This document shows positions 27,444-41,496 of a stretch of 64,000 nucleotides of DNA, one piece after another. The translations under genes and the position numbers were made by a program. Origin of the DNA: Proluteimonas flavola (GTDB lineage Bacteria > Pseudomonadota > Gammaproteobacteria > Xanthomonadales > Xanthomonadaceae). How positions within the stretch are numbered: position 1 is the stretch's first letter; every line of letters starts with the position of its first letter. The stretch covers positions 1-64,000 of the forward strand of contig NZ_JAIWPU010000017.1 of the NCBI RefSeq assembly GCF_021191705.1, written 5' to 3'. The notes beneath the pieces are model-generated. The model did no database searches. It was not told the origin of the DNA and saw only the letters and a list, made by a program, of their open reading frames with translations.

Positions 27444-29199
27444 GGCTCGATTCCTTGGAGGACGTGCCGACGACGGGTTCGGCGACAGGTGCGACGGAGG
27501 CGCCGATATCGAGCGAGGTGGCCTCGTCGGCATCGAGCATCTGCGCGTTGTTGTGATTCGGCGGCACCAGCGGCCAGACGTTGGCGGCGGTGTCGATGGC
27601 GACGTGCAGCAGCGCCGGACCGTCGGCGGCCAGCAGCGCGGCCAGCGCGGATTCGACATCGGCGGCCTTGTCGACCGACAGCGCCTGGATGCCGAATGCG
27701 CGCGCGACTTGCGCGAAGTCCGGGTTGTCGGACAGGTCGATCTCGGAATAACGGCGCTCGAAGAACAGTTCCTGCCACTGGCGCACCATGCCCAGCGCCT
27801 GGTTGTCGAGCAGGATGATCTTCACCGGCACGCGGTAGCGCTTCAGCGTCGCCAGCTCCTGCACGTTCATCAGGAACGAACCGTCGCCGCTGACGCAGAC
27901 CACGCGCCGCGACGGGTCTTCCATCTGCGCGCCGATCGCAGCCGGCAGGCCGAAGCCCATCGCACCCAGCGCGCCGCTGGTCAGATGCTTGCGCGGATGG
28001 TCGAAGCGCCAGTGCTGCGCGACCCACATCTGGTGCTGGCCGACATCGCAGGCGACGGTGGCATCGGGCGCCAGTTCGCTCATGCGCTTCAGCAGCGCGG
28101 GCGCGAAGACCTTGTCGCCGGGTGCGTCGTAGCGGGCGGCGAACCGCTCGCGGCGCAGCGCGCATAGATCACGCCACGCAGCGCGCGCGGCGGCGTGCCG
28201 GCCCTGCATCTGCGCCGCGCAAGGCGCACCCAGACGCGACAGGCTGGTGGCGACATCGCCGCACACCGACACATCGGCGGCGCGCAGCTTGCCGATCTCG
28301 CAGCTGTCGCCGTCCAGATGCACGATGCGCGCCAGTGGCGCGAACTCGGCCAGCTTGCCGGTCGCGCGGTCGTCGAAGCGCGCACCGACGACGATCAGCA
28401 GATCAGACTCCTGCACCGCCAGGTTCGCCGCGCGGCTGCCGTGCATGCCGATCATGCCGAGGTTGGCCGGATGGGTCGGCGGCAGCGCGCCCAGCGCACG
28501 CAGCGTCAGCACGGTCGGAATCTGCGTCAGATCGGCGAACTCCCGGAACGCCTCCAGCGCATCGCCCAGGATGATGCCGCCACCGCCGTAGACCACCGGG
28601 CGTTCGGCCTGCGAAATCAGTGCGGCCGCTTCGTGCAGCGCGTGGTCGGCGCAGGCCGGCATGGTGTCGGGTGTTGACGGAATGTATGCGCCCAGATGCG
28701 CGGCATCGCCGATCTGCACGTCCTTCGGCAGATCGATCAGCACCGGGCCGGGGCGGCCCGAGCGTGCGATGCGGAAGGCTTCGGCGACGACGTTCGGCAG
28801 TTCGTCGACGCTGCGCAGCAGGAAGCTGTGCTTGACGATCGGCAGGGTCATGCCGAACACGTCCAGTTCCTGGAACGCATCGGTGCCCATCAGCGGCGTC
28901 GCCACCTGGCCGGTGATGACGACCATCGGCACCGAATCCAGCATCGCGTCGGCAATGCCCGTCACCAGGTTCGAAGCGCCCGGGCCGGACGTGGCCACGC
29001 AGACACCGACGCGCCCGCTGGCCCGCGCGAACCCGTTCGCGGCGAACGCCGCGCCCTGTTCGTGGCGGACCAGCACGTGCTTCAACGACGCACCATGCAG
29101 CGCGTCGTAGAACGGCATGATCGCGCCGCCCGGATAGCCGAAGATCGTGTCGACGCCTTCGGCCTCCAGCGCCTGCACCAGCCAGCGGGCGCCGTTCAT
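27427..29199 (-). CDS. ilvG: acetolactate synthase large subunit
   Basis: A 590-residue thiamine diphosphate enzyme making acetolactate and acetohydroxybutyrate. The catalytic glutamate is in VRHEQGAAFAANGFAR, the central FAD/beta domain spans about 190-330, and the ThDP motif is GDGSFLMNVQELATLKRYRVPVK. Adjacent to the short IlvM subunit, hence the ilvG name rather than ilvB/ilvI. The ATG shares one base with the ilvC stop. Confidence 0.96.
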   Translation of the reverse strand: MNGARWLVQALEAEGVDTIFGYPGGAIMPFYDALHGASLKHVLVRHEQGAAFAANGFARASGRVGVCVATSGPGASNLVTGIADAMLDSVPMVVITGQVATPLMGTDAFQELDVFGMTLPIVKHSFLLRSVDELPNVVAEAFRIARSGRPGPVLIDLPKDVQIGDAAHLGAYIPSTPDTMPACADHALHEAAALISQAERPVVYGGGGIILGDALEAFREFADLTQIPTVLTLRALGALPPTHPANLGMIGMHGSRAANLAVQESDLLIVVGARFDDRATGKLAEFAPLARIVHLDGDSCEIGKLRAADVSVCGDVATSLSRLGAPCAAQMQGRHAAARAAWRDLCALRRERFAARYDAPGDKVFAPALLKRMSELAPDATVACDVGQHQMWVAQHWRFDHPRKHLTSGALGAMGFGLPAAIGAQMEDPSRRVVCVSGDGSFLMNVQELATLKRYRVPVKIILLDNQALGMVRQWQELFFERRYSEIDLSDNPDFAQVARAFGIQALSVDKAADVESALAALLAADGPALLHVAIDTAANVWPLVPPNHNNAQMLDADEATSLDIGASVAPVAEPVVGTSSKESSHALPV

Positions 29200-30194
29200 C
29201 AGGCGGCCTCGCTCTGCGCTGGTGCCGGCGCGCCGGTCTGCTCGCCCAGCCAGGTCATCTTGGCGCGCAGCTGCTTGCCGACCTGCTCGATCGGGTGGTC
29301 CTTGTCGGCCTGCTGGAACTTCCTGTAGTTCGGCAGGCCGGCGTCGTATTCGGCCTGCCAGTTGCGGGTGAAGGTGCCGTTCTGGATGTCGGTCAGCACA
29401 TCCTTCATGCGCGCCTTCACTGACGCGTCGATCACCCGCGGGCCGCTGACGAAGTCGCCGTACTGCGCGGTCTCGGAGATGAACTCCAGCATCCGGGTGA
29501 TGCCACCTTCGTAGAACAGGTCGACGATCAGCTTCAGCTCGTGCAGCACTTCGTAGTACGCGATCTCGGGCTGGTAACCGGCTTCGACCAGCGTCTCGAA
29601 ACCGGCCTGCACCAGCGACGACGCGCCACCGCACAGCACTGCCTGCTCGCCGAACAGATCGGTCTCGGTTTCTTCCTTGAAGGTGGTCTTGATGATGTTG
29701 GCGCGCGCGCCGCCCAGGCCCGCGGCGTAGGTCAGCGCCAGCTGCTCGGCCTTGCCGGTCGGGTCCTGGTGGACGGCGTAGATGCAGGGCACGCCGCGGC
29801 CGATTTCGTATTCGCGGCGCACCAGCGCGCCCGGGCCCTTGGGCGCGACCAGCACCACGTCCAGATCCGCGCGCGGCGCGATCATGTCGAAATGCACGTT
29901 GAGGCCGTGCGCGAACAGCAGGCAGGCGCCCTGCTTCATGTGCGGCGCCAGCACGTCGGCATACAGCTGCTTCTGCACCATATCGGGCGTCAGCACCGCC
30001 ACCAGGTCGGCATCGGCGACTGCCTCAGCAGGTGTCTTGACGGTGAAGCCGTCGGCCTTCGCTTGTCGCTCGGTCGGGCCGCCGGGACGCAGGCCGACGA
30101 CGACGTCGAAGCCGGAATCGCGCAGGTTCAGCGCGTGCGCGCGGCCCTGGCTGCCGTAGCCGACGATGGCGATGGAGGGATTGGCATTGCTCAT
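29199..30194 (-). CDS. ilvC: ketol-acid reductoisomerase
   Basis: A 331-residue class I (short) IlvC that isomerises and reduces acetolactate with NADPH. The Rossmann loop is [21 protein letters not shown] (residues about 8-28), and metal ligands are in [10 protein letters not shown] and [13 protein letters not shown] with [11 protein letters not shown]. First structural gene of the branched-chain operon, 340 bp downstream of the leader-peptide stop. Expression is therefore likely governed by the attenuator upstream. Confidence 0.96.
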
Positions 30195-30466: not shown

Positions 30467-30499
30467 AAACAAAAACCCCGCACCTTTCGGCGCGGGGTT
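30467..30499 (-). terminator. ilv attenuator (intrinsic terminator)
   Basis: Read leftward, AACCCCGCGCC-GAAA-GGTGCGGGGTT forms an 11-bp stem (one G-U pair) with a GNRA-type loop, followed by TTTGTTT. It lies 34 bp after the stop of the branched-chain leader peptide and well before ilvC. This is the layout of an operon attenuator: efficient translation of the leader would allow the hairpin and premature termination. Confidence 0.85.
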
Positions 30500-30532
30500 C
30501 AGGTTCTTTCGACCTTCTGGAGTTTCGTCTTG

Positions 30533-30685
30533 CTACACGAACCCCATCCCCGCGCCATTCCGGACGGTAATAAGGAGTACGAGTACAAGAAGAATGGCCG
30601 AGGTGAGCGCGACCGGCAGGCGCACGTCGCGCACGCGGAGGCGTGCGGCGATGGCGGTCTGGCGGTGGTTGTTGCGCTGCGTCAT
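30533..30685 (-). CDS. ilvL: ilv operon leader peptide
   Basis: A 50-codon open frame beginning [10 protein letters not shown] and containing the run [11 protein letters not shown] at residues 31-41, followed by RNGAGMGFV and a TAG stop. Eight of the eleven residues from Ile31 to Val41 are Leu or Val and two are Ile, the regulatory amino acids of the pathway. It precedes an intrinsic terminator and the ilvC-ilvD block, the classic attenuation layout. The ATG lies only 31 bp behind the -35 box and has no Shine-Dalgarno, so it may be translated from a leaderless transcript. Its first residues match the thr leader at 37238. Confidence 0.88.
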
Positions 30686-30689
30686 GTGG

Positions 30690-30722
30690 TCGAGAAAAAC
30701 ACGCCCGTGACCGCCGTGTCAA
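30690..30722 (-). promoter_or_regulatory. promoter of the ilv-leu operon
   Basis: TTGACA at 30722-30717 is a perfect -35 box. About 17 bp on, a TTTTTC/GTTTTT stretch can serve as -10 (weak match). Start of transcription would fall within a few bases of the leader ATG at 30685. The surrounding AACTGTTGACAC is repeated exactly at the thr promoter. The -35 box starts 3 bp after the topoisomerase stop codon, with no spacer. Confidence 0.7.
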
Positions 30723-30725
30723 CAG

Positions 30726-31820
30726 TTACTTCGAGAACGGTTTGCCCGCAGGGCGCTTGCGATGCCGCTGACGCAACAGCTTCAAGGCGGCCGCTTCCCA
30801 CTGGCGTTCGCCGCGTGCGGTGCCTGCGGCGCGCTGCAGTCCGCCATCACGCCAGGCCTCGTAGAGTACCGGGTCGATGTAGGCCTTCCTGCATACAGCG
30901 ACGGTGTTGCCGAGCGCATCCGCGACATCGGCGATGACGATCTTCTCCTGCGTCGCCAGTGCGCGTTCGCTGGGGTCGCCGCCCTTCAGGCCCTCGGGCA
31001 GGGGCATCGCCGCGAACCGCCGGAACGCCATCAGCGTGCCGCCCCAGGTGCGGAAGTCCTTGGCCGTGAACGCGCCACCCATCGCCTCGCGCAGGTAGTC
31101 GTTGACCATGCCGGAGTCGATGCCGTGGCGTTCGCCGGCGTCGTCGACGTACTGGAACAGCGCCTGTCCCGGCAACTGCTGCACCTTGCGTACCAGTGCG
31201 GTGAGTTTCGCGTCGTCGAGTTCGATCTCCTGCTCCTGTCCGCTCTTGCCGCGGAACTTCAGGCGTGCGCGACCGCCGCGCACCAGTTCGAAATGGCGGT
31301 TGCGCAAGGTCGTCAGTCCGAACGAGCCGTTGCTGCGTGTGTAGCTGTCGTTGCCGACGCGCACGAAGGTCTGCGCCATCAGCGACACGACGATCGCCAG
31401 CACCTTGTCGCGCTGCATGCCCGGCAACTTGAGATCGCGTCCCAGTGCGCGGCGCAGACGCGGCAGCGCGGTCGCGAACGCGACGATGCGATCGAACTTG
31501 CCGTGGCCGCGCACCTCGCTCCAGTCCGGGTGGTAGCGGTACTGCTTGCGTCCACGCGCATCGCGGCCGGTGGCCTGCAGATGTCCGTTCTCGAGCGCGC
31601 AGATCCACACGTTGCGATAGGCGGGAGGGATCGCCAGCATGCGCACGCGGTCGAGTGTCGCGCGGTCGCGCACGGTCTTGCCGTCGGGATCGCGGTAGCT
31701 GAATCCCTTGCCGGCGCGGCGCCGGCTCAGGCCGGGCAGGTCGTCGCTGACCCAGCGCAGGCCGGCCAGGCGCGCGGTGCGCACGTTGTCGTCGTCGTTC
31801 ACGGATCTGCCCAGCTTCAT
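30726..31820 (-). CDS. DNA topoisomerase IB (poxvirus/bacterial type)
   Basis: A 364-residue type IB topoisomerase that relaxes supercoils through a 3'-phosphotyrosyl intermediate. The N-terminal domain includes IPPAYRNVWICALENGHLQATGRDARGRKQYRYHP. The catalytic domain carries RVGNDSYTRSNGSFGLTTL and the C-terminal segment DALGNTVAVCRKAYIDPVLYEAW, with the active-site tyrosine presumably in KAYIDP. Length is typical of the bacterial family. Its stop codon abuts the ilv promoter, so read-through into the ilv leader is possible. Confidence 0.94.
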   Translation of the reverse strand: MKLGRSVNDDDNVRTARLAGLRWVSDDLPGLSRRRAGKGFSYRDPDGKTVRDRATLDRVRMLAIPPAYRNVWICALENGHLQATGRDARGRKQYRYHPDWSEVRGHGKFDRIVAFATALPRLRRALGRDLKLPGMQRDKVLAIVVSLMAQTFVRVGNDSYTRSNGSFGLTTLRNRHFELVRGGRARLKFRGKSGQEQEIELDDAKLTALVRKVQQLPGQALFQYVDDAGERHGIDSGMVNDYLREAMGGAFTAKDFRTWGGTLMAFRRFAAMPLPEGLKGGDPSERALATQEKIVIADVADALGNTVAVCRKAYIDPVLYEAWRDGGLQRAAGTARGERQWEAAALKLLRQRHRKRPAGKPFSK

Positions 31821-31934
31821 GAGCGGCTGATAACAAGCGCGGGATCAGCGGATGGTGAACAGGCTGCGCTTCACCCCTTCGGCACGCGGTGGTTCGCACA
31901 CTCGCCCCACACCACTTGCACGAGGAACACCACG

Positions 31935-32303
31935 ATGAAGACGATGCACAAGACCCTGATGGGTGCCGCGATCGCCGGCACGATGCTGATCGCCGGCACG
32001 GCCGTGGCGCAGGAAGCGCAGGAACGCGCCGACCGCACCGTCGCCGCGCAATCCGATTCCGATCAGCCGGTGTCCGATACCTGGATCACGACCAAGGTCA
32101 AGGCCGATCTGCTCGCCACGAGCGATGTGTCGGGCCTCGACATCAAGGTGGAAACCACCAATGGCACGGTAAGCCTGTCAGGCGATGTGGAGAGCCGGGC
32201 CCAGATCGAGCGCGCCGAAGCCGTGGCACGCGGGATCGAGGGCGTACAGCGCGTCGACGTGAGCCAGCTCAAGGTCGACACGCACGCCAACCACAAGAAC
32301 TGA
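31935..32303 (+). CDS. exported BON-domain protein
   Basis: A 122-residue OsmY-like protein. A signal peptide (MKTMHKTLMGAAIAGTMLIAGTAVAQ) precedes one BON domain (DTWITTKVKADLLATSDVSGLDIKVETTNGTVSLSGDV...), thought to bind phospholipid or interact with envelope components. GAGGAA lies upstream of the ATG at 31935. The much longer open frame upstream is a shadow of the opposite-strand topoisomerase. A good terminator follows immediately. Confidence 0.9.
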   Translation: MKTMHKTLMGAAIAGTMLIAGTAVAQEAQERADRTVAAQSDSDQPVSDTWITTKVKADLLATSDVSGLDIKVETTNGTVSLSGDVESRAQIERAEAVARGIEGVQRVDVSQLKVDTHANHKN

Positions 32304-32323
32304 AACGAGCGTCGTGTGAATCC

Positions 32324-32348
32324 GGGCCTCCCTTCGGGAGGCCTTTTT
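32324..32348 (+). terminator. intrinsic terminator after the BON gene
   Basis: GGGCCTCC-CTTC-GGGAGGCC followed by TTTTT. It lies 20 bp after the BON stop and touches the thrC stop codon on the other strand, so the hairpin may serve both convergent units, although the T-tract is only on the plus strand. Confidence 0.9.
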
Positions 32349-33661
32349 CATGCACGCGTCCATGCCGTCGAGGCGAGGCCCAGCAAGTGGCGTTGCAGGG
32401 CATCGGGCGTGCTGGAGAGCCGTTCCCCATGCGCCGGTCGCGCCAGCGAATGCGCCAGTGCGGGCGGCACGGGCACGACGTGGCCCACCAGCGGCTCGAC
32501 GACGGCATCGAACTTTGCCGGATGCGCGGTCGCCACGACGGCCCAGTCGCCGGTGTCGCCGTCCGCCCGCAGCGTTTCGAGCAGATGCAGACCTGTTGCC
32601 GTGTGCGGGCAGGGCACGATGCCGTGACGCGCGGGGGCGTCGCGGATCGTCGTGCGGATGGTCGCGTCGTCGACCGAGCGTGCCACGAACGCGGCGCGCA
32701 ACGCGTCGTCATCGGCATGCCAGTGACGCAAACGCTCGAAGTTGCTCGGCGCGCCGACGTCCATCGCATTGGCGAGCGTTGCGCGCGTGGGCTGCGCTTG
32801 GTAATCGGCGCCGTCGAAGAAGCGCGGCAGCGTGTCGTTCGCATTGCAGGCGAGGCGGATTTCGCCCAGCGATGCGCCCATTGCACGCGCCAGGAATGCC
32901 GCGGATGCATTGCCGAGATTTCCGGTCGGCACGATGAGATTGAGCCCATTGCCGGTCGCGGCATGGTGGTGAGCGGCGGCATGCGCATAGTAGGCCGCCT
33001 GCGGTAGCAGGCGGCCGAGGCTGATGCTGTTCGCGGTGCCCAGCGCGATGCGCGCGCGCAGGGCCGGATCCGACAGTGCCTGCTTCGCCAGCCGCTGGCA
33101 GTCGTCGAAACTGCCGTCGACGCGGTAGGCATGCACGTTGTCGCCCCAGCATTCCAGGCCATGCGCCTGTCGCGGCGACACGCGACCATCCGGATACAGG
33201 ATCACGACGGAGAAGCCGGCCCGGCGATGGAACGCCGATGCGACGGCCGCACCGGTATCGCCCGAGGTGGCGACGAGGATCGTCGTGTCCGGCGCTGCGG
33301 GATCGCGCAATGCGCCGAGCGCGCCGGCGAGGAACCGGGCCGCGTAGTCCTTGAACGCCGCGGTCGGGCCATGGAACAGTTCGAGCAGATGGTCGCCCGG
33401 GCCTGCCAGCGGGCGCAGCGGCGCATCGAACGCGAACGCCGCCGCGCAGAGATCGGCAAGCTGCGATTCGATGCGCGAGCCCACGAACCACGGTGCGAGC
33501 GTCGCGACGGCAGTATCGGCAAGCGTTGTGCGCGGCGTGACGAGATCGATCGCCGGGATCGACTCCGGCACGTAGAGGCCGCCATCCGGGGCGAGACCGG
33601 CGACGAGCGCATCGTCGATGCCGGCTGCGGGCGCGTTGCCGCGGGTGCTGACGAACTTCAT
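32348..33661 (-). CDS. thrC: threonine synthase
   Basis: A 437-residue PLP enzyme converting O-phosphohomoserine to threonine. N-terminal family segment [34 protein letters not shown] lysine in [30 protein letters not shown] binds phosphate. The ATG overlaps the thrB stop by 4 bp. Last gene of thrABC. Confidence 0.96.
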
Positions 33662-34623
33662 GCGGCGCCTCCCTCGATCAGTTCGGCGCGCGGACCCGCG
33701 ACCGGCGAGACATGGGCCTGCGCGTCGATGCCGGCATCGATGAAGCCTGCGCGCATCGCGGGCGCGGCACGTTCGGCCGCCTCGCGCGAATCGAACCACG
33801 CGAACACGCTGGGCCCGCCGCCGGAGATGCTCGCGCCCAGCGCCCCGTTCGCAAGCGCGGCGGCCTTGACCGCATCGAAGCCGGGAATCAGCGGCGCGCG
33901 TCGCGGTTCGACCAGCACGTCATGCAGGCCGGCACGGATCAGGTCGCGATCGCCACGTTGCAGGCCGGTCAGGAACAGGGCGAGATGGGTGCTGTGCGTC
34001 ACCACGTCGTGCAGCGCGTACGGGTCCGCCAGCACGGCGCGCGAGCGGCGCGTCTCCAGCACCTGGTCCGGATGCACGACGACCGCGTGCAGCCAGTCGG
34101 GCACTTCGAGCGCGATCAGTCGATCGGCGGTCGACAGGGTCACACCGCCCAGCAGCATCGGTGCGACGTTGTCGCCATGGCGCGCGCCGGACGCGACCGA
34201 CTCGCCGTCGAGTGCGAACGGATACAGATCCTCGCGCGACAGTGGCGCATCGAGCAGCGCGTTCGCCGCGACCAGAGCCGCGACGCAGGACGCCGCCGAA
34301 CCGCCGAGACCCGAGCCGAGCGGAATGCCTTTCTCCAGCGTCAGCGCGAAGCCGAACGGCAGCGACAACGCCGCGCGCAGCGACTGCAATGCGCGGCCGG
34401 CGGTGTTGTCGGCAGCGTTCAGCGGCAGGCGGTCGGCGCCTTCGACCGCGCCGCCGATGGACTCGATGCGCACCTCCGGCGTGTCGATGCGACGGACATG
34501 GGCGATGTCGCGCGGGCCTTCGATGACATGGCCGAGTACATCGAACCCCACGCCGATGTTGCCGACGCTCGCGGGTGCGAACGCGCGTGCGGCCATGCGT
34601 CTGGAATCGGGTGTCGGACTCAT
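33658..34623 (-). CDS. thrB: homoserine kinase
   Basis: A 321-residue GHMP-family kinase phosphorylating L-homoserine. N-terminal [18 protein letters not shown], the GHMP ATP loop [17 protein letters not shown] near residue 95, and C-terminal [13 protein letters not shown] are visible. The ATG at 34623 overlaps the thrA stop (ATGA). A second in-frame ATG 9 codons on would also precede the fold. Central gene of the threonine operon. Confidence 0.96.
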
Positions 34624-37148
34624 GCGTGACGCCAGCCGGTGCGCGCGCCGAGTGCGTGCGCGATCGCCAGCACGTCGCCGAACACGCCGGCGGCGGTGAC
34701 CTGCGGGCCGGCGCCGGGGCCCTGCACGACCAGGGGATTCTCGGCGTAGCGGGCCGTTGTGAACTGGACGAGGTTGTCGGTCAGGCGGGTATGCATGCAT
34801 GCATGATCGGCGGGAAGTGCGCGGACGCCAACACTCGCGTCGCCGCCGGCATCGAGCCGGGCGATGTGGCGCAAACCGCGGCCTGCGGCACGCGCGGCAT
34901 CCAGGCGCGCCTGCATCGGCGCGTCGAGTTCGGACAGGCGCTCGAGGAAGTCGTCGAGCGGCACGTCGCGCAGCGCTTCGGGGACCAGGCTTTCCACGTC
35001 GACATCGGTGAGCGACAGCGGCCGACCGGCCTCGCGCGCGAGGATCACCAGCTTGCGGGCGACGTCGAGACCGGACAGGTCGTCGCGCGGATCGGGCTCG
35101 GTGTAGCCGAGCGCGCGCGCTTCGCGGACCAGTTCGGAGAACGGGCGGCTGCCGTCGAAACTGTTGAACAGCCACGCCAGCGTGCCCGACAGCATGCCGT
35201 CGATCGTATGCAGCGTGTCGCCGGTATCGAGCAGGTTGCGCAGGGTCGCGACGACCGGCAGCCCGGCGCCGACGGTGGCCTCGTACAGGAAGCGGCTGTG
35301 ACCGGCGACGCGCGCTTCGGCGATCCGCGCATAGCGCTGCCAGTCGCCGCTGCCGGCGTGCTTGTTCGGGGTGACGACATGGATGCCGGCGGCGAGCCAG
35401 TCCGCGTACTTCGCGGCGACCGCATCGCTTGCGCTGCAGTCGACGATCATCGCGTGCGGCAGGTGGCCGGCGCGGACGTGTGCGGCGAAGGCATCGAGAT
35501 CGCAGGGCACGGCGTGGTCATCGAGCAGTGCGCCCGCTGCGCCCGGTTCGAGCGCGGCGTCGCTCAGATGCATGCGCCGGCTGCCGGCGATCGCTCGCAG
35601 GCGCAGGTCGACACCGGCACGCGCACGCAGCGCGGGAATCACCTCGGCCAACTGCGCCAGCAGGGCGCGGCCGACGTTGCCGGGCCCGATCACGCCCACC
35701 GACACCGTCTGCGGCGACAGCCAGAACGCAGCGTGCGCGGCGCGCAGGGCCCGTGTGGCGTCGTCCTGCGCGATCGCGACGGAGATGTTGCGTTCGCTCG
35801 CGCCCTGGGCGATGGCGCGGATGTTGACGCGGGCCTGCGCCAGCCCGTCGAACAGGCGCGCGGCGACGCCCTGGCTGCCGACCATGCCGTCGCCGACCGC
35901 CGCGAGCACGCACAGGTCCGTCGTCACCGCGACGCCCTGCGCCTGGCCTTCGGCGATCGCGTCGGCGAAGGCTTCGACAATCGCGTCATGGCCGCGCGTC
36001 GCCTGTTCGGCGCGCACCACGCAGCAGATCGAGTGTTCGGACGAACCCTGCGAGATCATCGTCACCGACACGCCGGCGCCGTGCAGCGCGGCGAACATGC
36101 GCTCGGCCATGCCGGGCACGCCGACCAGGCCGTTGCCGACGAGTTCGAGCACGGCCACATCGCGCACCAGGCTCAGGCCCTTGACCGGCGACACCGCGGG
36201 CGCTGCTTCCAGCGCGATCAATGTGCCGGGCGCGGCCGGATTGCGGCTGTTGCGGATGCGCACCGGCGTGCCGCGCGACTGCACCGGTGCCAGCGTCTGC
36301 GGGTGCAGCACCTTGGCGCCGAAGTAGGCGAGCTCGCAGGCCTCCGCATAGGACATCGCGTCGAGGCATACCGCATCCGGTACGAGGCGGGGATCGGCGG
36401 ACAGCACGCCGTCGACATCGGTCCAGATCGTCAGCGCGTCGGCATCGAAGAGGTTGGCGAAGATCGCCGCGGAATAGTCGCTGCCGTTGCGGCCCAGCGT
36501 GGTGTCGCGCCCATCGGCATCGCGCGCGACGAAGCCGGTGATGACGACGTCGCGTGCGCCGTGGGCGAGACGCCAGGTGGCGAGCCGCGCACGGCTGGCG
36601 TCCCAGTCGACGACGGCGCCCATTTCGGCGGCGTGGACGACCAGCACCTCGCGCGCGTCGAGGCGGTGCCAGTCCGGACCGAGCGCAGCCTGGGCGAGCC
36701 GCGAGGAGAGCTGTTCGCCGCAGCCGTGGATGCGCGCGAGGCGCGCGTCCCGCGATTGCGGATCGACACCGGATTCGTGGTGTTGCAGATCGCGCGCCAG
36801 CGCGGCGAACTCCACTTCGAGCGCGACGTGCAACGGCCCGCCCGCATCGGATTCGAATGCATCCGCTGTCTCGAGGTGGCGCTGGCGCAGCGCCTCCCAG
36901 CCCGGCTTCCAGTCCTCACCCGCAGCCGCGGCGTCGCCGAGTGCGACCAGCGCATTCGTGGTGCCGGCCATCGCCGAAACCACCACCGGACGCAGTCGCG
37001 CGTCGGCAGGCACGAGTGCGGCGAGCCTGCCGATGTGCGAGGCATCGGCCAGGCTGCTGCCGCCGAACTTGTGGACATGGCAGGCCAGCGCCGGCGCCCG
37101 TGAGGGGGCCGCGTGGGAAGGCATTTCGGACAGGGCGGCGAACGACAT
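34620..37148 (-). CDS. thrA: bifunctional aspartokinase I / homoserine dehydrogenase I
   Basis: An 842-residue fusion catalysing the first and third steps from aspartate toward threonine. The aspartokinase opens with [21 protein letters not shown] (residues about 23-43) and ends in the ACT-type regulatory region. The homoserine dehydrogenase begins around residue 480 with [19 protein letters not shown]. Threonine feedback is usual for this fusion. GGAG sits 7 bp upstream of the ATG. Expression is likely controlled by the Thr-rich leader upstream. E. coli ThrA is 820 residues. Confidence 0.96.
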
Positions 37149-37198
37149 CTTGGAGCTCCGGTTGGGCTCTGCGTCTTCGCTCGGGAGGGATCGCGGAT

Positions 37199-37221
37199 CC
37201 GCATCCCGGGCGGGGATGCGG
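37199..37221 (-). terminator. possible thr attenuator hairpin (no U-tract)
   Basis: CCGCATCC, a short GC loop, then GGATGCGG form an 8-bp stem 17 bp downstream of the thr leader stop and 50 bp before thrA. It is where the attenuator should be, but on the minus strand no run of T follows, unlike the ilv counterpart. Termination here would need Rho or a different mechanism, so the call is tentative. Confidence 0.45.
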
Positions 37222-37237
37222 AGCGGGCGAGGTCAGA

Positions 37238-37402
37238 TCAACTGGCGGCGCACGTCCACATCCCGGGGCCGGTGGTACCGGTGCCGGTGCGGGTGGTCGT
37301 GGTAATGGCCATCGTCACGGGACGGACAAGCGACGGGCACGCCGGCGCACCGGCGCGACCGGTGGCGAAGCTGCGGGGCGAGTGTGTTGTGCGCTGCGTC
37401 AT
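37238..37402 (-). CDS. thrL: thr operon leader peptide
   Basis: A 54-codon frame beginning MTQRTTHSPR and ending with the core MAITTTTRTGTGTTGPGM plus WTCAAS. Nine threonines and one isoleucine lie in the last 24 residues, as in enterobacterial thr leaders whose Thr/Ile codons gate thrABC. A shorter start at 37312 would give only the Thr-rich core. The longer start is preferred because MTQR and the bases around it match the ilv leader, and because it sits 30 bp behind the -35 box. No Shine-Dalgarno precedes it. Confidence 0.85.
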   Translation of the reverse strand: MTQRTTHSPRSFATGRAGAPACPSLVRPVTMAITTTTRTGTGTTGPGMWTCAAS

Positions 37403-37404
37403 GG

Positions 37405-37438
37405 CCGCAGGACAGCATGGCGCTTCGTGCGGTGTCAA
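37405..37438 (-). promoter_or_regulatory. promoter of the thr operon
   Basis: TTGACA at 37438-37433 within AACTGTTGACAC, identical over 12 bp to the ilv promoter. A -10 element is weak in this GC-rich spacer. Spacing of 30 bp from the -35 box to the leader ATG places the expected transcription start at or next to the AUG. Confidence 0.65.
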
Positions 37439-37551
37439 CAGTTCGATCTGAAACCGACGGCCGGCGCGTGTGTGCGGCGCATCGCCGCGACTCAATTCGG
37501 CCGGTCCGCCGCCGCTAAGGAAACGGGGCGGAAGCGCAGCGGAAGATGATC

Positions 37552-39351: not shown

Positions 39352-39407
39352 CACCGCGCGTGGAATCGCGCGCTGGTGCGACCTCCGCTTTCGCGGTCTA
39401 ATGCGGG

Positions 39408-41496
<2,089 letters not shown>

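Follow-up and report, generated by a model that had tools for sequence, protein, structure and literature searches.

Two amino acid operons of Proluteimonas flavola, ilv and thr, are each preceded by a leader peptide that begins MTQR. The pair raises the questions of where the leader RNAs begin, whether at the AUG of the peptide or upstream of it, and how two operons come to have the same start. Judging from comparisons of sequence, I consider it quite likely that these are two ribosome-mediated attenuators, whose leader RNAs would start at the leader AUG or within about 2 nt of it.

The DNA considered in this study (the window) is a stretch of 64,000 nt from contig NZ_JAIWPU010000017.1 of assembly GCF_021191705.1, a genome of 4.22 Mb. 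Features of the two loci are collected in Table 1. The ilv leader contains a run of cognate codons (ILLVLVLLI). No Rfam family of amino-acid leaders was matched in the window at the gathering score, the sole Rfam match being a TPP riboswitch. A gene resembling topoisomerase IB lies upstream of the ilv leader and is co-directional with it; the TAA stop of this gene overlaps the 12-mer shared by the two operons, and the ilv -35 starts 3 nt past its end.

Table 1. Positions of observed and predicted features of the ilv and thr loci, numbered within the window.
Feature	Position	Strand	Remarks
Topoisomerase IB-like gene	30726-31820	-	Pfam
Shared 12-mer AACTGTTGACAC, ilv	30716-30727	-	holds -35 TTGACA (30722-30717)
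ilv TG-extended -10-like element TGTTTTTCT	30693-30701	-	TTTTCT at 30698-30693; 18-nt spacer; ends 7 nt before ATG; weak match to TATAAT
ilv leader peptide, 50 codons	30533-30685	-	ATG 30685-30683; stop 30535-30533; predicted RNA start 30685
ilv candidate antiterminator arm GGCGCGGGG	30548-30556	-	inside leader, just past Ile/Leu/Val run; complementary to terminator 5' arm
ilv predicted intrinsic terminator, U-rich tail	30473-30500	-	5' arm holds CCCCGCGCC, complementary to GGCGCGGGG
ilvC	29199-30194	-	first structural gene, before ilvG and other ilv genes; NCBIfam ketol-acid reductoisomerase
Shared 12-mer AACTGTTGACAC, thr	37432-37443	-	holds -35 TTGACA (37438-37433)
thr TG-extended -10-like element TGCTGTCCT	37409-37417	-	TGTCCT at 37414-37409; 18-nt spacer; ends 6 nt before ATG; weak match
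thr leader peptide MTQRTTHSPRSFATGRAGAPACPSLVRPVTMAITTTTRTGTGTTGPGMWTCAAS, 54 codons	37238-37402	-	ATG 37402-37400; stop 37240-37238; predicted RNA start 37402
thr segment A GGGATGTGGA	37255-37264	-	last leader codons
thr segment B TCCGCATCCC	37213-37222	-	pairs with A or C (predicted)
thr segment C GGGATGCGGA	37198-37207	-	predicted hairpin B:C, without U-tract
thr D1/D2 predicted hairpin	37153-37169	-	includes thrA SD GGAG (37159-37156); from fold; D1:D2 complementarity weak in set
thrA, aspartate kinase/homoserine dehydrogenase	34620-37148	-	thrB and thrC next; NCBIfam
TPP riboswitch	39405-39500	+	upstream of thiC

Direct reading of the sequence confirms what the first-pass annotation had claimed of the two start regions: both leaders begin ATGACGCAGCGCA behind an identical 12-mer, the distance from TTGACA to the ATG is 31 nt in ilv and 30 nt in thr, and no Shine-Dalgarno (SD) tetramer precedes either leader ATG. 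Both -35 elements equal the consensus and both -10 elements are poor, each -10 hexamer standing one base past a TG; a scan for sigma-70 consensus promoters between 28000 and 40000 found none (0.7 in shuffled sequence). The pattern TTGACR-N28-34-ATGACNCAGCGC occurs just twice in the whole genome, at the ilv and thr leaders, and the reversed pattern does not occur. The spacing by itself is found at chance level, exact TTGACA-N30-33-ATG having 13 sites in this genome as against 11 for its reverse. None of the 11 further sites encodes an amino-acid run, and three of them, which head open reading frames of 138-205 codons, may belong to ordinary genes. In relatives, leuA is a further gene with this start ahead of it.

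A chance likeness between two unrelated start regions, which the number of sites with the bare spacing would permit, has next to no probability, being contradicted by conservation: TTGACA-N28-34-ATGACNCARCGC matched 80 of the 395 genomes of the family (2 of 395 for the reversed control), and among the 80 matches listed from a scan across species, described below, 69 precede a peptide rich in Ile, Leu and Val.

Leaders in relatives were picked by peptide composition alone, to avoid choosing them by the pattern. DNA upstream of ilvC was taken from 41 of the 83 genomes with an ilvC match and DNA upstream of thrA from 70 genomes (109 of 119 genomes had some thrA match), in both cases spread over genera by hand. 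A leader was found at 40 of the 41 ilv loci, the remaining contig being cut short, and at 61 of the 70 thr loci, the other nine having none. All 40 ilv leaders and 59 of the 61 thr leaders have an in-frame ATG 27-35 nt downstream of a TTGACA that is exact or has a single mismatch; seven other 9-nt windows gave 0-6/40 and 2-8/61. These counts come from kindred genomes and so are not independent trials. In all 99 leaders that have it, the spacing is 30, 31, 32 or 33 nt (ilv 15, 21, 3 and 1; thr 31, 15, 10 and 3, respectively), and the DNA between the two fixed points, promoter and ATG, has diverged. Exact TTGACA at 30-33 nt precedes 38 of the 40 ilv leaders and 44 of the 59 thr leaders but, among 3675 other ATGs of these upstream regions, only one. 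The two composition-picked thr leaders without the spacing come from genomes (G018 and G035) that keep it at ilv.

Outside the family, nine of 19 ilv loci have a leader at the spacing (6/6 in family f3, 1/1 in f5, 1/1 in f7, 1/2 in f11, and, upstream of ilvC in f12, 0/9), four of the nine passing on composition alone (8 of 10 residues Ile, Leu or Val) and five having been accepted partly on the spacing. The corresponding thr sample was 13 loci, one of which, without the motif used for placing thrA, was dropped; four of the remaining 12 gave a leader, all four at the spacing (30, 30, 30 and 29 nt).

SD tetramers precede none of the 99 leaders, whereas they precede 57 of the 59 thrA starts, so that SD use is normal within the same operons. 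The base at -1 is C in 93 of the 99 leaders (ilv 37/40, thr 56/59), as compared to 36/59 thrA starts and 35.7% of other ATGs. Transcription initiators usually have a pyrimidine at -1 and a purine at +1, and C before the ATG conforms to this pattern when the A of AUG is taken as +1. The sequence TGNNNNNCT ends 6-8 nt before the ATG in 29 of 40 ilv leaders and stands 6-9 nt before it in only 17 of 59 thr leaders; overall, the -10 elements of the leaders match TATAAT at two to five positions, a TG bonus being counted. In P. flavola itself, the spacers and the distances of the -10-like elements from the ATG point to a start on the A of the ATG or adjoining it. The fixed spacing, the lack of an SD and the C at -1 all argue for a start on the A of AUG, and transcription of the ilv and thr leaders probably begins there. 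TTGACA and a weak TG-extended -10 would be placed so as to make the A of AUG the first base of the RNA, and the leader RNA would take on ribosomes without SD pairing. The leaderless geometry first read from two loci thus gains strong support from the comparison of relatives, but with a poor -10 and no consensus promoter.

Those same two weaknesses would suit an RNA that starts farther upstream and has a 5' UTR without a recognisable SD, TTGACA being then some other type of site or belonging, as its -35, to a promoter with another spacing; in the case of ilv, transcripts of the topoisomerase IB-like gene, which ends before the -35, could read through. Such a start is nonetheless improbable, given the C at -1 and a distance of 30-33 nt to the AUG that persists through 99 leaders from both operons.

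With a start at the AUG, the remainder of the ilv leader has the look of a conventional attenuator of the terminator type. Stalling of a ribosome in the Ile/Leu/Val run would free GGCGCGGGG for pairing with the 5' arm of the terminator and the operon would be on; a ribosome that had reached the stop codon would cover GGCGCGGGG, the terminator would form, and the operon would be off. By a simple scan, an antiterminator arm and a U-tailed terminator were found in 20 of the 40 ilv leaders, and no hairpin in 11 of the 40. Across the 12 kb scanned, terminator-like sites are no more numerous than by chance (4 against 4.1), and the argument for ilv consequently rests on position and complementarity.

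No U-tailed terminator was found after the stop of the thr leader: in none of 59 sequences were there five or more T in the 9 nt past the best hairpin, and in nine there was no hairpin. Present instead is an ordered set of segments, A within the leader codons and then, after the stop, B, C, D1 and D2, the last being the thrA SD. Their complementarity was assessed in 58 of the 59 sequences, one being dropped in which B was not located. The mean complementarity within a genome (with the value for shuffled sequences in parentheses) is 21.1 (14.9) for A:B, 21.6 (14.2) for B:C and 18.6 (13.3) for B:D1, while that of D1:D2, 14.3 (12.7), is barely over the shuffles. Pairs not expected to be partners are at shuffle level, i.e., A:C 13.8 (13.6), A:D1 14.4 (15.0) and C:D1 14.1 (15.2), except that B:D2 is somewhat raised, 11.7 (9.9). 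A genome's own segments pair better than those from another genus in 49 of 58 cases for A:B, 33 for B:C, 41 for B:D1 and 43 for D1:D2. B:D1 is weak in P. flavola itself. RNAalifold gave essentially no common fold for the thr leaders, which is expected of competing folds but also of an unreliable alignment.

The lack of a U-tract, together with pairing segments that end at the thrA SD, suggests that thr is subject to translational attenuation at that SD, a reading that I infer with less assurance than the one for ilv. A, B, D1 and D2 would correspond to segments 1 to 4 of the classical scheme, the thrA SD replacing the terminator, and a stalled ribosome would mask A, leaving B to pair with D1 and the thrA SD free. 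Alternatively, control of thr might act through termination of transcription, with Rho as one candidate, and not at the thrA SD. The weakness of D1:D2 in the set and the standing of B:C as the strongest hairpin speak for termination, but none of the hairpins found is followed by a U-tract and the B:D1 complementarity adjoins the thrA SD, and I think this alternative possible but rather unlikely. Attenuation at the thrA SD is the reading retained below.

There remains the start that the two operons share. Among the leaders of the family, MTQR begins 17 of 40 in ilv and 3 of 59 in thr, that of the present genome being one of the three, and on these counts MTQR was rejected as a universal mark of such leaders. 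Sixteen of the 17 MTQR starts in ilv read ATGACGCAGCGC. Twelve of the 59 thr leaders start ATGACGCA, three of these being the MTQR leaders, and the majority of thr leaders have a different start at the conserved spacing. The common leader cassette proposed in the first-pass annotation accordingly holds in this genome and, as ATGACGCA, in a minority of thr leaders, but the others keep the spacing without it.

A wider view of the start came from a scan for TTGACA-N30-32-ATGACGCAGCGCA in one genome per species (84,980 species), which matched 97 stretches, 80 of them listed. Among the 80 matches listed, the 69 noted above start a peptide of fewer than 70 codons with at least six Ile, Leu or Val in 10; one (L281) stands before ilvD with a weaker run; and 10 are unrelated, four of them from Salipiger. 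Within 1.5 kb downstream of the listed matches, the ilvD motif was found in 38 cases, the ilvC motif in 7 and the leuA motif in 20, and NCBIfam confirmed two ilvD and two leuA. The MTQR start occurs on ilv or leu leaders in records named Lysobacter, Luteimonas, Luteibacter, Dyella and Tahibacter, and in the named Luteibacter and Dyella records it stands before leuA instead of ilvC. Both spacing and MTQR precede leuA in L252, L254 and 18 more named records (Luteibacter, Dyella, Tahibacter and similar), where the leader ends in an Ile/Leu/Val run and GGAG. In the four Salipiger matches and one other (L278), TTGACA-N30-ATGACGCAGCGC precedes a gene beginning MRYQITGKQIDIGEALQTHV, which looks to encode a ribosome hibernation factor, and the short open reading frame has no Ile/Leu/Val run. 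As for histidine, 30 hisG loci yielded one His-rich open reading frame, without the spacing, and none upstream of hisG in this genome.

When compared with ATGACGCA-type ilv leaders from genomes other than their own, the 12 ATGACGCA-type thr leaders have an identity of 0.82 in the -35 block and 0.61 in codons 2-12, as against 0.61 and 0.32 for the other 47 thr leaders; in the 20 nt before the ATG they are no closer (0.41 vs. 0.37). The ATGACGCA-type class is clustered on a tree of 30 ThrA proteins, 3 of 500 shuffles being as low. A single origin of the class was rejected, since the same tree needs five label changes, of which at least four are forced by well supported branches. MTQR would be an old feature of many ilv and leu leaders, its bases shared by a minority of thr leaders, and thr would most simply have got the shared start through copying of a piece containing promoter and start. 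The ATGACGCAGCGC start might also reflect convergence, with no copying of a cassette, on a start that favors initiation on leaderless RNAs. Convergence would be in keeping with the retention of third bases as well in nearly all the MTQR starts of ilv, and with promoter spacers that are no more alike; yet the likeness spans the -35 block and codons 2-12, and the majority of thr leaders manage with a different start. I regard convergence as doubtful, and copying of the promoter-plus-start piece fits best.

The -35 region of nine further thr leaders, TTGACGC..CGCAC, has 11-13 of 14 bases in common with the leader start ATGACGCAGCGCACA; what was once a start codon may there serve as the -35 of the next promoter unit downstream. 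In 9 of 10 cases no remnant of an earlier -35 was seen upstream (G062 has five of six bases at 28 nt), for which reason such sliding of the promoter stays a lead. A more comprehensive proposal, which I put forward tentatively and would not expect to hold in full, is that Lysobacterales would as a rule attenuate ilv, thr and leu on leaderless mRNAs, with promoter and start codon as one conserved unit. The thr version would be driven by leaderless translation and would hide the thrA SD, and in some lineages the unit would have slid by one register, a change of ATG to TTG having converted the old ATGACGCAGCGCAC start to the -35 element of a leaderless promoter that arose 36-39 bp downstream.

Set beside known systems, the loci share with enterobacterial thrL and ilvL the logic of stalling and folding and the runs of cognate codons, and differ from them in that the enterobacterial leaders have a 5' UTR with an SD and, in thr too, a U-tailed terminator. 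The mechanism had at first been proposed to be distinct from this paradigm, a claim that shrinks, as leaderless attenuators have been published elsewhere and the ilv logic is classical; it stands at most for how translation starts. In Sinorhizobium meliloti, the attenuator RNA rnTrpL has its 5' end at the ATG of trpL (PMC7298713), so its RNA likewise begins at the leader-peptide ATG, but this is a single trp leader in an alphaproteobacterium, and the passages on it describe no start shared between operons. In Streptomyces lividans, RNA-seq gave leaderless ilvL, leuL, trpL, thrL (before thrS) and metL (PMC8079986), again leaderless leader peptides ahead of amino-acid genes; the differences are that the organism is an actinobacterium, the peptides are short, thrL precedes thrS rather than thrA, and the account of these leaders gives no common start. 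The ilvBNC leader of Corynebacterium glutamicum is discussed as leaderless (PMC11857589) and, by the title of Morbach 2000 (via PMC4046766), lacks a ribosome-binding site; it too is an Ile/Val leader, but from an actinobacterium, with the gene order ilvBNC and a three-hairpin model. Leaderless polycysteine open reading frames act as attenuators in mycobacteria, according to the title of Canestrari 2020 (via PMC13236596). They resemble the present leaders as short leaderless attenuator frames and differ in responding to cysteine, and the passage citing them speaks of translation attenuation. Among gammaproteobacteria, leaderless genes are said to be found mostly in Xanthomonadales and Legionellales (PMC3160421), the former being the order considered here, in a paper whose main text has no occurrence of the terms leader peptide or amino acid biosynthesis. 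In the literature searched, of partial coverage, leaderless leaders of amino-acid operons were not found described for Xanthomonadales/Lysobacterales, and absence from print is not claimed. New here would be a gammaproteobacterial order with leaderless ilv, thr and leu attenuators, an unusually rigid register from promoter to AUG, and a start shared between operons.

Attenuation requires well-timed loading of a ribosome on every nascent RNA. Conserved attenuators that seemingly do without an SD would provide a natural test, in gammaproteobacteria that can be grown, of leaderless initiation keeping pace with RNA polymerase. They would also supply a start-site rule for annotating such leaders (TTGACA, 30-33 nt, usually C, then ATG) and a case of one start sequence serving several amino acid operons.
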